Assembly: GCA_020629155.1 (NCBI GenBank)
Contig: JAHDDW010000003.1
Span: 124,001-188,000 of the forward strand
From: Acidimicrobiales bacterium
Lineage (GTDB): Bacteria > Actinomycetota > Acidimicrobiia > Acidimicrobiales > SZUA-35
Direction: 5' to 3'
DNA length: 64,000 nt
Shown: positions 979 through 61,424 of the stretch, piece after piece
Numbering within the stretch: the first letter of the stretch is position 1
Layout of the letters: each line of letters begins with the position of its first letter
Made by a program: the position numbers and the translations under genes
The notes under the pieces: generated by a model
The model's input: only the letters and a program-made list of their open reading frames with translations
What the model was told of the DNA's origin: nothing
Databases searched by the model: none

Positions 979-1099
979 GGGCATCTCTATTTATTATAGA
1001 TGCCCTCGGTATTCCCGCTCCGCTCGGGGCGTTCCCACGCAGATTTTAGCGATTCTCTGGTAAAGCGATTTGATCCAAAACGAATAAATAGAGATAGCC
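979..1099 (+). repeat. MITE-like dispersed element, family A (copy 1)
   Basis: Terminal inverted repeats gggcatctctatttatt ... aataaatagagatagcc; homologous to reverse complement of 47445-47558. Confidence 0.75.
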
Positions 1100-5599: not shown

Positions 5600-5717
5600 G
5601 GAATCTCTGGTTAAAGGGTCAACTCCGAAAGGCTTGAACTGAGAACCGCGTATCTGCTGCGTGCAACGCGCCAAGCGCAGCGGAAATACGAGGGAATGTA
5701 AAATAAACGACGTTCCC
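5600..5717 (-). repeat. MITE-like dispersed element, family A (copy 2)
   Basis: Reverse complement gggaacgtcgtttattttacattccctcgtatttccgctgcgcttggcgcgttgcacgcag... aligns to copy 1; fills the gap between the stop codons at 5598 and 5718. Confidence 0.7.
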
Positions 5718-9068: not shown

Positions 9069-9605
9069 TTAAATAAGTTTTTCTTTACTTGCTGCATGCC
9101 CACGAAGCAACGAACCAGCATGCGGAGGCCACAACACAGGAGCGACAAGAACTTTCTGCAACCCACCTGCGTCTAGCTCTACACGGGACACATCGCCATT
9201 TCTGATCACAACAAACGGACGCTTTGCATCACACGTTTGCCGAACTAGCCCAAAATCGTCGCTGCATACTTGCGCAGCAAAACGTTCCACCACAGATGAT
9301 GAAGTTTCACAAGACGCTGTCACTAGTGGCGTTGCTTTCGCCCACATTAACGCTGTCAACAAAGGACCAAACGCAGCAAAACGTTCGTAGCGGTTCTTAA
9401 CACTTGGATGAAAACTATAGCTATGAGGCCCTACGATAATCACAGGGTCAATAGCAACTTCATGAAAGACATGAAGCAAAATTTCAACACTACTTTGATG
9501 CTCAACAGTGCAGGCATCATCAGGGCACAGTATCGCCCCAGCAACAAGCATAGGCTTCCCTTTTATCGTTTTTCTGCCGGAACAAGCAAACAGCAGCCCG
9601 CCCAA
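9069..9605 (-). CDS. Hypothetical protein, possibly nucleotidyltransferase-like
   Basis: 178-aa ORF with TTG start; weak resemblance of GRKTIKGKPMLV...VIIVGP to MobA-like NTP-transferases. Confidence 0.5.
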   Translation of the reverse strand: MGGLLFACSGRKTIKGKPMLVAGAILCPDDACTVEHQSSVEILLHVFHEVAIDPVIIVGPHSYSFHPSVKNRYERFAAFGPLLTALMWAKATPLVTASCETSSSVVERFAAQVCSDDFGLVRQTCDAKRPFVVIRNGDVSRVELDAGGLQKVLVAPVLWPPHAGSLLRGHAASKEKLI

Positions 9606-9606
9606 A

Positions 9607-9672
9607 GCTGCATGCTAACGTGCTGGACATAGCCGAAATGACAAAAGGATGCGAAATACGAAGGCACCCTCT
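9607..9672 (-). repeat. Degenerate copy of dispersed element family A
   Basis: Reverse complement gggtgccttcgtatttcgc...gcacgttagcatgcagctttg resembles family A; directly follows the DUF3151 stop. Confidence 0.45.
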
Positions 9673-25769: not shown

Positions 25770-25960
25770 TTTTGCTCCTGATGTTTTGGTAAGGCGGGAG
25801 GCTTCGACCGCCAAGCAACATCTGCTGCCTTTCTAAATACTACGACACGACAACAAGAAGCCGCAACTATCTGGGAGCTCTTCAACTAGATTGTCACCAT
25901 GGTTAATTCCAAGGGCACGTCAAACTTTAAAGTATTTTACACAAATAGCGCTATCGTTTT

Positions 25961-26074
25961 TGCTCTATCTTGATTCCAGGATAGTCATCTCCCGGGGAAA
26001 CCAGAGATCTTGCCGAGCAAAGACTCCCGCTTACGTGGAAATGACAACCAGAATAGGCTAGAAGTCAACCATCT
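25961..26074 (+). repeat. Dispersed repeat, family B (copy 2)
   Basis: tgctctatcttgattccagg...gtcatctccc...aataggctagaagtcaaccatct matches 1158-1269. Confidence 0.75.
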
Positions 26075-26076
26075 AG

Positions 26077-30642: not shown

Positions 30643-30750
30643 AGGGCACCTCTAACAATTATAGATGCCCTCAGATTTCCTGCTTTCAGACGATTCGCTT
30701 GCATGCGAAGTCGCTAACGCTGCGTGCAAGCGACTCAAGCCTAGAACCAA
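30643..30750 (+). repeat. Dispersed element family A (copy 3, diverged) plus hairpin
   Basis: gggcacctctaacaattatagatgccctcagatttcc matches head of copy 1; followed by tcgcttgca...tgcaagcga hairpin. Confidence 0.55.
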
Positions 30751-30763
30751 GCATCACCTATCG

Positions 30764-38671: not shown

Positions 38672-38879
38672 GTCATCCCCAACTTGATCACGTCATCCCC
38701 AACTTGATCACGTCATCCCCAACTCGATTGGGGATCTCTCTCTGGCCAGATTCCCAGTCGTAGCTGGGAATGACGGGGTCGTGGCTGGGAATGACGGGGT
38801 CGTGGCTGGGAATGACGTGGTCGTGGCTGGGAATGACGGGGACGTAGCTGGGAATGACGGGGACGTAGCTGGGAATGAC
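38672..38879. repeat. Tandemly expanded GTCATTCCC-type inverted repeat locus
   Basis: GTCATCCCCAACTTGATCAC units on the left arm and five extra ~21-bp units ending ctgggaatgac on the right, between convergent genes. Confidence 0.9.
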
Positions 38880-43836: not shown

Positions 43837-45552
43837 TTATTTTTTAGCCGTATACACATCAAACCCGTCGATCTGGTCAGATAGAGTCAATCGCTTCACA
43901 GCAACTGCAAGCAGACGGTCTGATTCGCTTGTGCGATATTTGTCGTCAGGGCGATGGATAACAACTTTCGGCGGCTCCTTTGTTATCACCGCTATAGCTC
44001 GATCGATATCTTCTCCGCTTCGCAAACCAAAGGTGGCATTAAAAAACCATAGCGGGCTTTGCCTACCGCTGATGCTATAGATTTCAGGGTTTGTGGGCAA
44101 TGCCAAAATCGGATCCTGCTGGGCAGTGTTCGACTCGATGATCTCCAACAATCGACTGTATGGCTCGATATCTTTCGCCGGCAGCCAGAGACCCGTGCCC
44201 ATAGCTGAATCTTCGACGAGGGGGAAGCGCACTCCTGCCATTGCTGCTTCATGCGGACGATACAAGGGCTGACCAGCAAAGAAAACCAATGCTAATGCCG
44301 CCATAATGGCAGGAACGCCAACAAGAACACGCGAGAAATTCCCCTTAGGCGTCGTGACCACGATATGGCCAAGCAACGTTGATGCTGTCACAAAGAAAAG
44401 ATAAATAGGTATCTGATAGTGCACCGAGATTGTCGACCAAACGACGGCCAACAAAGCAAGTGGATGCACAAACTCGTTACGAATCATTTTTCTGACGACA
44501 CGTATACCTAGTACCGCTGGGTTAAGAACAAGGGTAACCCAAAATAGAGTAAGCACTATCGTTGTGACATCTCTGGCATTCATCAACCCGTCAAGGCCTG
44601 CTTTGAGCTCATTCAGAAAAGATGGATCGTTAATCCAACCCTGTTGCGCAAAACTAGTCGCAGAACCAAAAGTTGCGTCTAGCCAACCGTCAAGCAACCC
44701 TGAAAAAGCTAGATAACAAACAAGTGGAGCGAGAACAGCGAAGAACCCTGCACTCAGTTTGCCAACCAACAATAGTGAATCTTTCTTGTTGAGCTGAGGG
44801 CGCAAAGCCAGTAAGCAGAAAATAAGTAGCGGCCACAGTCCAACAATCGCCAAGCTATCTATATTCGTTCGGCTTACAAGATAGAACCCAAGACCAAGAG
44901 CCATGCACGCTGCTATACCTGCCGCTAGAAGACCATCACGACGATTGCGCTTCACTAAAGAAGAATCAGTTTCGTACAATAGCATCGCAACCAAAGCCAT
45001 TGCGGCAAGCACTCCAGAGAGCTGCCGGGTAAGAAAAATCACAGCAACGCCAGCACCTACCACATAAAGCCGCCAGCGAGTTGACTTGTCAGTATTGGAA
45101 ACAATACAACCCAAGGCAAGAACGAAGAGGAGACTATACCAGTTGGCGCTTGGATTCAGAAAAAGCACAAACGAGAGCGATACAAACCCCACAGCAGCGC
45201 TTATCGCCGCTTGCCACCCATGGATCTTTTCAACAATATGATGGACAGTTAAAGCACCGACCCAGAAACCCGCCGCTAAAAAATAGCGTAGACTGACGAA
45301 CTGATCACCGAATAGTCGCAGCGCTAACGCATGAATATGGTGGACAAGCCCAGGATGAATATCTGTTACGCCTTGTGTGTACGTTTCGCCAGCATTCATC
45401 TGCTGGGCAACATACAGGTACGCACCTTCATCGGGACCCCACCAAAAACGATTGTGAAAATACCAAAGAATCAGACCACAAACCAACCCTGAAACCGCTA
45501 AAGGCAGACGGAGCCAAGACATATCGATGTGTCTGTCGTTTCTTTCTGCCAC
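43837..45552 (-). CDS. GT39-like polytopic membrane glycosyltransferase
   Basis: WGPDEGAYLYVAQQMNAGETYTQGVTDIHPGLVHHIHALALRLFG; multi-TM. Confidence 0.7.
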   Translation of the reverse strand: MAERNDRHIDMSWLRLPLAVSGLVCGLILWYFHNRFWWGPDEGAYLYVAQQMNAGETYTQGVTDIHPGLVHHIHALALRLFGDQFVSLRYFLAAGFWVGALTVHHIVEKIHGWQAAISAAVGFVSLSFVLFLNPSANWYSLLFVLALGCIVSNTDKSTRWRLYVVGAGVAVIFLTRQLSGVLAAMALVAMLLYETDSSLVKRNRRDGLLAAGIAACMALGLGFYLVSRTNIDSLAIVGLWPLLIFCLLALRPQLNKKDSLLLVGKLSAGFFAVLAPLVCYLAFSGLLDGWLDATFGSATSFAQQGWINDPSFLNELKAGLDGLMNARDVTTIVLTLFWVTLVLNPAVLGIRVVRKMIRNEFVHPLALLAVVWSTISVHYQIPIYLFFVTASTLLGHIVVTTPKGNFSRVLVGVPAIMAALALVFFAGQPLYRPHEAAMAGVRFPLVEDSAMGTGLWLPAKDIEPYSRLLEIIESNTAQQDPILALPTNPEIYSISGRQSPLWFFNATFGLRSGEDIDRAIAVITKEPPKVVIHRPDDKYRTSESDRLLAVAVKRLTLSDQIDGFDVYTAKK

Positions 45553-45668
45553 CGCCTTCTAATCGGACAAATTACGTGGAAATCAATAGTTGCCTAGGGT
45601 TGCTGACAGTAGCATCGAGTTGTGGCAAAGACAGTAGCTTTTGCCCCTTAACCGAATACGCTGGGTTT

Positions 45669-47444
45669 GTGAAACAAATTTTTGGTGCTCTCGCTTACTC
45701 AAAGCAGCTCAAGCCGTATTATCTGCTTGTCTCTTTCTTCTCAATTCTTGTTGCCATCGCAACCCTCATGCAACCATTTTTGCTGAAATGGGTTATCGAT
45801 GAGTTTGAGACTGGTTTGCCACGAGCATCACAGCTTATCCTTCTCGTCGTGCTCTATTTCGCTCTCGATTTCAGCATCACCATTTTTACCAATATCGGCG
45901 GCTATTTCGGTGACATGATGGAGATTAAACTGCGCCGACATTTGAGCGAACAGTACTACAAACATTTGCTTCAGCTGCCACAACGCTACTTTGATAATGA
46001 GCGCACAGGTGCGTTAGTTAACCGTTTGAGCCGTTCAATAGAAAATTTAACGACAACAATAAAAATGTTTTCGAACAACTTTCTCCAGCTGCTATTCACT
46101 ACCGTTTTTACTCTAGTTATCACCGCTGCCTACTCCCCTATAGCCGCTTTCTTAATGCTGATCCTTTACCCGCTGCTGCTTTGGCTCACTAGACGATCCT
46201 CTGAACAATGGCAAGAAATAGAGAAAGAGAAAAACGGTTTTCTAGATGAAGCATTTGGCCGTTTCACCGAGGTGATCGGGCAGATCAGAGTTGTTAAAAG
46301 TTTTCGTCAGAACAAAAACGAGCTACACCTTTTCCAAAACAAATTTGGTGAAACAATTGCACTGACGTCGAAACAATCTAAGCTTTGGCACAATCAAGAC
46401 GTTCTGCGTCGATTAATGCTAAACCTTATCTTTACAGGCATTTTTGCAACCATTATTTGGCAGACATTTAAAGGCAGTCTTTCTCTTTCTGAGCTTGTGC
46501 TTATTTTGGGCTACACCAACCTTATCCGCCTACCACTCTTCTCATTGAGCTTTATCGTCGATTCTGTGCAGCGAGCCATCGCAGGGAGCAAAGACTTCTT
46601 TGAAGTTCTGGCACTAGATACTGAACCTAAGGCATTTGATGAGCCAGACGATATTGCGCAAATAGACCGAGCCGAATGCACTGTTGTTTTCGATGATGTC
46701 TGTTTTGCTTACGACGAAGACGATCGAGTGCTCAATAACCTCAATTTCGTGATCAACCCTGGCGAAAAACTTGCGCTAGTTTCAGAATCAGGCGGCGGCA
46801 AGTCAACTATAGCAAACCTGTTGATGGGGCTATACCACCCGACAGCTGGCAGCATTACGCTTGGGTCTGAAAACACAACCGATCAGCCTTTTTATTGGCT
46901 ACGCGAGCAGGTTGGCGTTGTCTTCCAAGACGCTGATCTGTTCTCGGGAACTATCTTAAGCAATATCTCATACGGCAGACCAGATGCCGACATCGAAGAA
47001 GTTGAACGAGTCGCAGAGCTAGCGAATGCACACGAGTTTATATCAAAGTTTAAAGATGGCTATCACACCGAAATTGGTGAGCGAGGCATCAAACTTTCAG
47101 GCGGGCAGCAGCAGCGTATAGCTATCGCTAGAGCGTTGCTGAAAGACGCACCTATTTTGATTCTCGACGAAGCAACGTCAGCGCTGGATTCGAAAACAGA
47201 AGTAGAGGTACAGGCTGCTTTGGAAACTTTGATGGAAGGTCGCACAAGCCTTATTATCGCCCACCGCCTGTCAACCATCGCAAATGTCGACACTATCATC
47301 ACTTTAGCCGACGGCACCATTGATGAAATTGGAACGCCTGCCGAGCTTAGTGTTTCTGGCGGCACCTACGGACAACTCTTACAGCTACAATCTGCGGACC
47401 CTGAAGAACGCAAAAAATACCTTAAACAGTTTGATCTGCATTAA
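45669..47444 (+). CDS. ABC exporter (permease-ATPase fusion, MsbA/MdlB-like)
   Basis: TM domain plus SESGGGKSTIANLLMGLYHP, LSGGQQQRIAIARALLKDAPILILDEATSALD; GTG start at 45669 preferred over 45375. Confidence 0.93.
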   Translation: MKQIFGALAYSKQLKPYYLLVSFFSILVAIATLMQPFLLKWVIDEFETGLPRASQLILLVVLYFALDFSITIFTNIGGYFGDMMEIKLRRHLSEQYYKHLLQLPQRYFDNERTGALVNRLSRSIENLTTTIKMFSNNFLQLLFTTVFTLVITAAYSPIAAFLMLILYPLLLWLTRRSSEQWQEIEKEKNGFLDEAFGRFTEVIGQIRVVKSFRQNKNELHLFQNKFGETIALTSKQSKLWHNQDVLRRLMLNLIFTGIFATIIWQTFKGSLSLSELVLILGYTNLIRLPLFSLSFIVDSVQRAIAGSKDFFEVLALDTEPKAFDEPDDIAQIDRAECTVVFDDVCFAYDEDDRVLNNLNFVINPGEKLALVSESGGGKSTIANLLMGLYHPTAGSITLGSENTTDQPFYWLREQVGVVFQDADLFSGTILSNISYGRPDADIEEVERVAELANAHEFISKFKDGYHTEIGERGIKLSGGQQQRIAIARALLKDAPILILDEATSALDSKTEVEVQAALETLMEGRTSLIIAHRLSTIANVDTIITLADGTIDEIGTPAELSVSGGTYGQLLQLQSADPEERKKYLKQFDLH

Positions 47445-47558
47445 GGCTATCTCTATGTATCGCTTCTCTGCTCTGAATCGCTTTACCCAAAAACCGCTAA
47501 AAGCTGCGTGCTAACGCTCGAAATGCCGAGGGCATGTACAATTGTCAGAGATGCCCTT
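47445..47558 (-). repeat. MITE-like dispersed element, family A (copy 4)
   Basis: Reverse complement gggcatctctgacaattgtacatgccctcggcatttcgagcgttagcacgcagcttttagcggtttttgggtaaagcgatt...atagagatagcc; fills gap between stop codons at 47444 and 47557. Confidence 0.8.
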
Positions 47559-48369
47559 AATCTAAAATAGCTTCAGGCGATGAAGCGACAAGATCAGTAG
47601 CACCAAGTGCTTTTAGATCGCTTAGCTGTTCCCAAAAGTCTTTTTTATTAAAAACAAGATGCACAGCGACATTGTCAGAACCATCTAACGGAACAATTGT
47701 TGGTGTGCGCTGCGTCAATACCTTCAGCTCAGCGAGCTTATCTAGCGACAAATGAAACATAACATACAGTTTTTCTTTTGCCACCAGCACTGAATTAAGG
47801 CGAAGTGTTAGCTCGTCTAAAGCTGGACTGCTTGTTTTACCTTGTACAAATGTTGCTTGACATGATTCAGCTTTGTGAATGGCGTGCAGACCATTGTTAA
47901 ACAAACTTGCACCTGTGTCACGTAAATCAACGATTGCGTCAGCTAAACCCTGAGCACAAACACCTTCGAGAGAACCGCCCATAGAAATAACTTCGACGTC
48001 GATTTCCATCGAGTCAAACCATTTGCGCGTCCATGTAGGTAAGTGCGTAGCGATTACTTTCCCTTTAAGATCTAGAGGCGCTTTATATGGCGCATCTTTC
48101 TGGCATGCAATAACTAAGTCAGATGTAGAAAACCCAAGCGGCGTTGTTTCCCAGTCTTCTATGCCTTGTTCTAACGCTATATCTGTTGATATAAACGCAG
48201 CCGACAAATGGCCATTAGCTAGCCATGTTGCAGCATCACGGGGGCGCATCTCTATGAAAGAAATTTCGCCTTGCGTTGACTTTGATAAAGCTCTTGGATA
48301 TCCCGCCCGAGTCATCAAATCAAGAACTGATTCACGTAATCTTCCTTTTGAAGGAATTGCAACAAACAT
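47557..48369 (-). CDS. hisG: ATP phosphoribosyltransferase (long form)
   Basis: IPSKGRLRESVLDLMTRAGY; DAIVDLRDTGASLFNNGL; C-terminal regulatory-like region. Confidence 0.93.
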   Translation of the reverse strand: MFVAIPSKGRLRESVLDLMTRAGYPRALSKSTQGEISFIEMRPRDAATWLANGHLSAAFISTDIALEQGIEDWETTPLGFSTSDLVIACQKDAPYKAPLDLKGKVIATHLPTWTRKWFDSMEIDVEVISMGGSLEGVCAQGLADAIVDLRDTGASLFNNGLHAIHKAESCQATFVQGKTSSPALDELTLRLNSVLVAKEKLYVMFHLSLDKLAELKVLTQRTPTIVPLDGSDNVAVHLVFNKKDFWEQLSDLKALGATDLVASSPEAILD

Positions 48370-60542: not shown

Positions 60543-61295
60543 ATGACCACCGCCAACATGTTAACCACATTGCCCAATTTAGACCGAAAAGATAACCTTA
60601 CTATAGACATACGGTCAGAACCAGCGACCGTGAGTTTCAACGGTCGAACGTTACCACTAAAAACTGGAAAGCCTGATCTTAGCAGCCGTCTAACTATACG
60701 AACATTCGATATAGCATCTTCTTCACTACTTCTAATTGCAACCTTTCCTCTCTTTATTTTATTATTCATTTCAGTTAAAATTACCTCGAAAGGACCTGCT
60801 ATATATAAAGATAAGCGGGTTAGCCATAGGAAGCCATATTTTAATCTTTATAAATTTAGAACCATGCATGAAAATGCAGAAGAGATTCTAGAAGAGCTCA
60901 TGAGCGACGAAAAAATGAGCACTGAGTACAAAAAATATGCCAAACTTAAACAAGATCCGCGAATTACAAGCATTGGCTCATTTCTTAGAAAAACTAGCCT
61001 AGATGAACTTCCGCAGCTTCTAAACGTTCTTAAAGGCGATATGAGCCTTATTGGACCAAGACCCAAAAGCCAAGAAGAACTAGCTGTCTTTTCATATGCA
61101 ATGCCGACTATTTTGCGTGTTAAACCCGGCATCACAGGCTTGTGGCAAGTAAGCGGACGCAATGAACTAACACTCGAAGAACGCGTTATGCTCGACGTTG
61201 AATATGCAACAACACGTAGCGCTAGCCAAGATATTGTCATCTGCTTCAAAACAGCCAAACAGATGGTTCAGCCAATGTCTAATGGCTCTTACTAG
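60543..61295 (+). CDS. Bacterial sugar transferase (undecaprenyl-phosphate glycosyl-1-phosphate transferase)
   Basis: ITSKGPAIYKDKRVS...FNLYKFRTMHENAEE...TSLDELPQLLNVLKGDMSLIGPRPK...KPGITGLWQVSGRNELT. Confidence 0.92.
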   Translation: MTTANMLTTLPNLDRKDNLTIDIRSEPATVSFNGRTLPLKTGKPDLSSRLTIRTFDIASSSLLLIATFPLFILLFISVKITSKGPAIYKDKRVSHRKPYFNLYKFRTMHENAEEILEELMSDEKMSTEYKKYAKLKQDPRITSIGSFLRKTSLDELPQLLNVLKGDMSLIGPRPKSQEELAVFSYAMPTILRVKPGITGLWQVSGRNELTLEERVMLDVEYATTRSASQDIVICFKTAKQMVQPMSNGSY

Positions 61296-61424
61296 AAAAA
61301 TTGCCTCTACGTTCCACACATTTTGGCTGCGCTCGACACGTTACACCCCAGCTTTAACAGATCGCCACTTAGCAGGTTCAGCAAATAATAAGTAAAAATA
61401 TCTTACAAAGCTATCCTTAACTCT

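Follow-up and report, generated by a model that had tools for sequence, protein, structure and literature searches.

Positions 979 to 1,099 of the DNA analysed here, a 64,000-nucleotide stretch of an Acidimicrobiales draft genome (the window), carry a short unit that recurs elsewhere and begins with a hairpin. Two questions follow: what kind of element this unit (family A) is, and why its hairpins stay paired. The first-pass annotation had described a MITE-like family, dispersed, bounded by terminal inverted repeats and showing compensation in its head hairpin; the present analysis supports this reading. Quite probably, family A consists of non-autonomous DNA transposons (MITEs) that a DDE transposase once moved in trans; as a sequence family it is new, as a kind of element it is not.

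Copies in the window

Two models were used for scanning: R1, a sequence-only model built from 31 copies, and R2, a structure model built from 116 aligned matches. Three good copies and two or three degenerate ones lie in the window:

979..1099, forward strand: copy 1, full-length, 121 bp (R1, 117.9 bits, E = 9e-36)
47445..47556, reverse strand: copy 2, full-length, core hairpin deleted (R1, 76 bits, E = 1.1e-22)
5600..5717, reverse strand: copy 3, stem variant GGGAA/TTCCC (R1, 64 bits, E = 6e-19)
9558..9670, reverse strand: copy 4, degenerate (R2, 55.9 bits, E = 2.4e-10)
30644..30758, forward strand: copy 5, degenerate, clear in head and core only (R1, E = 2.8e-5 for 30644-30706; R2, E = 5e-4 for 30645-30758)
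61274..61400, forward strand: copy 6, marginal, stem interrupted by an insertion (R2, E = 9e-4)

By sequence and model scores, all five copies named in the first pass exist at or near the positions it gave, with R1 bit scores of 117.9, 76 and 64 for the good ones and 24.7 and 20.1 for the remaining two; the sixth was added by R2. Some bounds shift. The 47.4 kb copy, previously placed at 47445-47558, ends at 47556, bases 47557-47558 being part of the flanking TTAA; the 9.6 kb copy, previously 9607-9672, is longer and extends over 9558-9670 in R2; the diverged 30.6 kb copy can be traced clearly through its head and core only. The GGGAA..TTCCC stem reported for the 5.6 kb copy is real: it pairs at 7 of 8 positions and is an instance of the stem variant GGGAATGT/ACATTCCC, which recurs among the copies. 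As had been claimed, the window copies carry no transposase, no ORF of 100 aa lying inside them.

Family size and distribution

The host draft genome, split over 59 contigs, totals 3.17 Mb, with a completeness of 97% and a contamination of 2.8%. A HemQ-like protein encoded in the window comes closest (67%) to metagenome genomes of Acidimicrobiales; on this one protein, the host is most likely an uncultured representative of Acidimicrobiia (Actinomycetota). A BLAST search with copy 1 yields 41 matches in the draft, far above chance, and R1 finds at least 150 there, nearly all with E < 1e-3; chance similarity among the copies is thereby ruled out. An unbiased sample, made up of the window and 400 kb of contig C5, has about 7 R2 matches per 100 kb; extrapolated, this suggests a total of about 200 copies in the genome. 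Copy totals thus rest on the model matches, at least 150 in number, together with this sample, and amount to about 150-200 copies beyond those first named.

Searched against 38 further members of the taxonomic family, two of them from the same genus, the family model has no match. Across the order, in a less sensitive search of the best 12 candidates per genome, the host alone matched among 298 genomes. The core pattern is absent from the other named genomes searched, viral contigs give no match, and BLAST against plasmids and phages returns no family A match. Restriction to a single lineage is not surprising, since a same-genus relative is only 64% identical to the host in DNA over a single matching gene; at that distance empty insertion sites are not comparable. 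Full-length copies have a median pairwise identity of 71%; between nearest neighbours it is 85%, with a maximum of 96%, so the bulk of the expansion is not very recent. Family A documents a lineage-specific repeat expansion, most likely in Acidimicrobiia; no description of such elements in this class was found among the open-access papers searched.

Anatomy of the unit

The unit is about 120 bp long, gene-free and bounded by terminal inverted repeats, GGGCATCTCTATTTATT and GGCTATCTCTATTTATT. Its consensus, with two positions resolved by eye, is GGGCATCTCTATTTATTGTAGATGCCCTCGGTATTTCCGCTCCGCTCGGGGCGTTTCCACGCAGATTTTAGCGGTTCTCTGGTAAAGCGATTCGATACAAAACGAATAAATAGAGATAGCC. The left end recurs in inverted form at the right end, and once more in inverted form at about positions 20-27, where it closes the head hairpin. 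The parts of copy 1 are as follows:

979..995, forward strand: left terminal repeat GGGCATCTCTATTTATT (sequence; exact match in the terminal-repeat scan)
1083..1099, reverse strand: right terminal repeat GGCTATCTCTATTTATT (sequence; exact match in the terminal-repeat scan)
979..1005, forward strand: head hairpin GGGCATCT...AGATGCCC (covariation across 114 copies)
1016..1031, forward strand: core hairpin CGCTCCGCTCGGGGCG, with a bulged T (covariation, pair columns 71/83: C-G, G-C, U-A)

The two ends of copy 1, quoted correctly in the first pass, are alike at 15 of 17 bases, and the shared terminal pattern gives 51 matches against 1 for a reversed control. A+T richness, common though not universal in MITEs, is not a feature of family A: G+C is 0.41-0.52 in full copies and about 0.47 overall, against 0.47 for the genome (400 kb).

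Shortened and multiplied forms also occur. One copy at C18:99396 is an internal deletion of 69 bp with both ends kept, and two diverged units stand in tandem at C58:80432. Three head units of 65 nt are repeated in tandem at C28:44833-45030 (L056, 834-1031), and three core units of 69 nt at C5:350859-351104 (L057, 860-1104). Arrays of heads or cores only, together with the many truncated copies, are beyond simple transposition.

Target sites and genomic placement

Among 48 copies with both ends preserved, the flanks favour T(T/A)AA. The left and right 4-mers are identical in 9 of these copies, against 3.3 with shuffled right flanks, a count of 9 being reached in 3 of 2000 shuffles. Matching flank bases are in excess at length 4 only (z = 3.4; z < 1.6 at lengths 2, 3, 5, 8 and 9). 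The target duplication is therefore 4 bp long (TTAA, TAAA), and it is exact in a minority of copies. The flanks of the 47.4 kb copy are as follows:

47441..47444, no strand: TTAA flank, one copy of the target duplication, containing the stop codon of the ABC transporter ORF 45375-47444
47557..47560, no strand: TTAA flank, the other copy, containing the stop codon of the hisG-like ORF 47557-48369 (reverse strand; hisG by NCBIfam)

The TTAA on either side thus supplies the TAA stops of the hisG-like gene and of the convergent ABC transporter gene, both of which are intact. Before the insertion the two stops would have overlapped in a single palindromic TTAA.

All 27 copies in the unbiased sample are intergenic, though about 80% of the DNA is coding according to a simple codon-usage gene finder. 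An enrichment between convergent genes, reported for pneumococcal repeats, is not seen in the same sample (4 of 27, Fisher p = 1), nor is a clear bias in orientation relative to genes (11 same, 7 opposite). In a larger, biased set, copies seem by inspection to lie against stop codons more often than against start codons.

Probable transposition and the search for a partner enzyme

Movement in trans by a DDE transposase is the favoured reading because the unit has terminal repeats, a target duplication of fixed length, an intergenic placement and no genes. Both the transposase and its class we infer from these features. The enzyme would have been supplied by an element now lost or missing from the draft assembly; it would have recognised both terminal repeats (GGGCATCTCT... 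and GGCTATCTCT...) and inserted the unit of about 120 bp at TTAA- or TAAA-like targets, generating the 4-bp duplication. Copies would then survive between genes, often right at stop codons, where they do least harm. Each unit carries two local hairpins, one in the core and one in the head, where the left terminal repeat pairs with an inverted copy of itself some 20 bp inside. The high copy number, the TTAA on either side of the 47.4 kb copy and the 69-bp deletion copy that retains both ends also speak for a MITE. Against the MITE reading stand the missing transposase with matching ends, the mostly inexact target duplication, the ordinary A+T content, and the truncated and tandem copies.

The search for such a transposase covered five Pfam families and the surroundings of stray terminal repeats in the draft assembly, and neither part found the enzyme with matching ends that the first pass had proposed looking for. 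The five families yielded a single gene in the host genome, of IS1182-like type and with inverted repeats unrelated to those of family A, which speaks against an IS4/IS5/IS1182-type partner in this draft. This sole PF01609 transposase lies on contig C55 (3145 bp; L076/L077), which may be a collapsed repeat or a contaminant. No partner of the IS1380 or IS701 type was found in the draft genome; in the ISAzo13-type search the control genomes gave no match. Terminal-repeat matches outside known copies are single ends or fragments, and no transposase occurs among the ORFs of the three loci listed. One candidate composite, running from a head (C37:109053) to a tail (C37:110884), was set aside: the intervening gene resembles by eye a glycerol-3-phosphate dehydrogenase, not a transposase. 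The partner enzyme may have been lost, may be missing from the draft, or may belong to a class outside the five families.

REPINs likewise combine compensated hairpins with many intergenic copies (PMC3116915). Family A could on these grounds be REPIN-like, its mover being a REP-associated tyrosine transposase (RAYT). This origin is nevertheless highly improbable. The 97%-complete genome contains no PF01797 (Y1_Tnp) gene, whereas the same search was positive in five control genomes; the family A unit is not a doublet of inverted REPs; and it has a fixed 4-bp target duplication, which is not generally expected of RAYT-type enzymes.

Hairpin covariation

The head and core hairpins are clearly kept intact by matching changes on both sides. 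Covariation was scored on an alignment from the sequence-only model, which is hence not fitted to structure; the shuffled controls leave shared descent in place. Across 114 distinct copies the proposed stems are paired in 90% of cells, and both partners differ in 97 cells, where shuffling leaves 31.6. Covariation scores 0.176, compared with 0.069 (sd 0.005) in shuffled data and at most 0.035 when the partner is slid. In the head, pair 4/30 occurs as 44 C-G, 14 G-C, 8 A-U and 2 U-A, and pair 7/24 as 55 C-G and 29 G-C; the second hairpin covaries as well, core pair 71/83 occurring as C-G, G-C and U-A. On a tree built without the stem columns, pairs 4/30, 7/24 and 71/83 need at least 14, 8 and 23 changes, counts that may be inflated, the tree being weak (85 columns).

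A direct scan of each copy finds a perfect stem of at least 7 bp in 51 of the 114, many others being truncated or having one mismatch. Ten different perfect stems of this length occur: GGGCATCT, GGGGATGT, GGGAATGT, GGGGATCT, GGGTATGT, GGTATCT, GGAGATGT, GGAATCT, GGCGATGT and GAGGATGT. The covarying head hairpin seen in the first pass is thus not only right but general, each of the ten stem sequences having its complementary partner, and changes at pairs 4/30 and 7/24 are compensated in other copies too. The idea that the terminal repeats form one long covarying stem was tried and finds little support (score 0.023, against 0.016 shuffled); a G/C swap at position 7 is matched at the right end in six copies.

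The first pass had taken compensation to suggest that the stem itself is selected. Compensation stands; selection, as opposed to restoration by mutation, is not proven by it. The data are compatible with selection for folding, whether of DNA (single-stranded or cruciform) or of RNA, and also with palindrome correction through template switching, a mutational process established in bacteria. Under the latter account nearby arms template each other during replication (quasi-palindrome correction), the hairpins are unselected and compensation is a mutational by-product. It deserves serious weight, with somewhat less than an even chance of being correct: it requires no function, it predicts from proximity that the two close hairpins covary strongly and the distant terminal repeats weakly, as observed, and degenerate and truncated copies retain perfect stems. 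It does not readily explain why substitutions fall largely at stem positions 4, 6 and 7 and at the core pair, with G1-G3 and A5 almost invariant, a pattern that suggests a constraint on sequence as well.

Selection could act on transcribed RNA, the hairpins serving in 3' UTRs or operon spacers as a ribonuclease site, an attenuator or a stabiliser, which is compatible with a MITE origin. Such roles have been reported for ERIC, Correia and BOX elements (PMC3049150, PMC2229807), and the strong covariation of two local hairpins and the many copies that abut stop codons point the same way. An RNA role is nonetheless doubtful given the lack of a clear orientation bias, the complete loss of the core hairpin from the 47.4 kb copy, and the make-up of copy 1, which has no terminator-like site and matches nothing in Rfam up to E = 5 (at gathering score, Rfam finds only tRNAs in the window). 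Copy 1 has no promoter-like site either.

Less likely still, the hairpins could be the functional unit of movement itself, the element moving or persisting as a single strand of DNA or RNA whose fold is recognised along with its terminal sequence, with stems free to change while they remain paired. Family A would then be a structure-directed MITE served by a class of transposase to which such elements have not so far been linked. With some 200 copies in a single genome and ten stem versions still paired, family A is a natural experiment with an unusually clear record of compensated stems; it permits a direct test of whether the hairpins of a bacterial mini-transposon are selected or merely repaired into palindromes.

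Comparison with known elements

Bacillus bcr1 elements may be one analogue of family A. Nearest in kind, judged on general features, is the pneumococcal RUP, a 107-bp element with 108 intergenic copies and IS630-Spn1 as its proposed mover (PMC2229807, PMC3049150): length and order of copy number are similar, and both elements are intergenic and gene-free with terminal inverted repeats. RUP, however, inserts at TA and has IS630-Spn1 as its partner, whereas family A has a 4-bp duplication (TWAA) and no partner was found. BOX of pneumococcus is likewise modular and folded, with internal parts tandemly repeated in some copies (PMC3049150); in family A, by contrast, tandem units are exceptional, and terminal repeats and a 4-bp duplication are present. 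REPINs, too, are high-copy intergenic hairpins with compensatory changes (PMC3116915), and differ from family A in their RAYT gene, their REP doublet and the 4-bp target duplication that family A alone possesses.

Other repeats and arrays

Two other repeat families were observed. Family B, GGTCATCCCCGAGAAATCGGGGATC...GATTCCCACTTTCGTGGGAATGACGA, occurs in the window at 1156-1269 and 25899-26076 and on contig C5 at 100712, 139570, 205409, 243523 and 383586; one of its copies directly adjoins family A copy 1, and it gives a weak Rfam match to FtrB (E = 0.0034, below gathering score). Family C, GTCATTCCCAGCTACGACTGGGAATC...GATCCCCAATCAAGTTGGGGATGACG, resembles family B in style and occurs in the window at 38677-38795 and on C5 at 105090, 263800-264024 (tandem), 279619, 378883 and 382618. 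The same contig carries a CRISPR-like array of about 3.4 kb at 171836-175276 (locus L210), with a 37-nt repeat and a period of about 72 nt.
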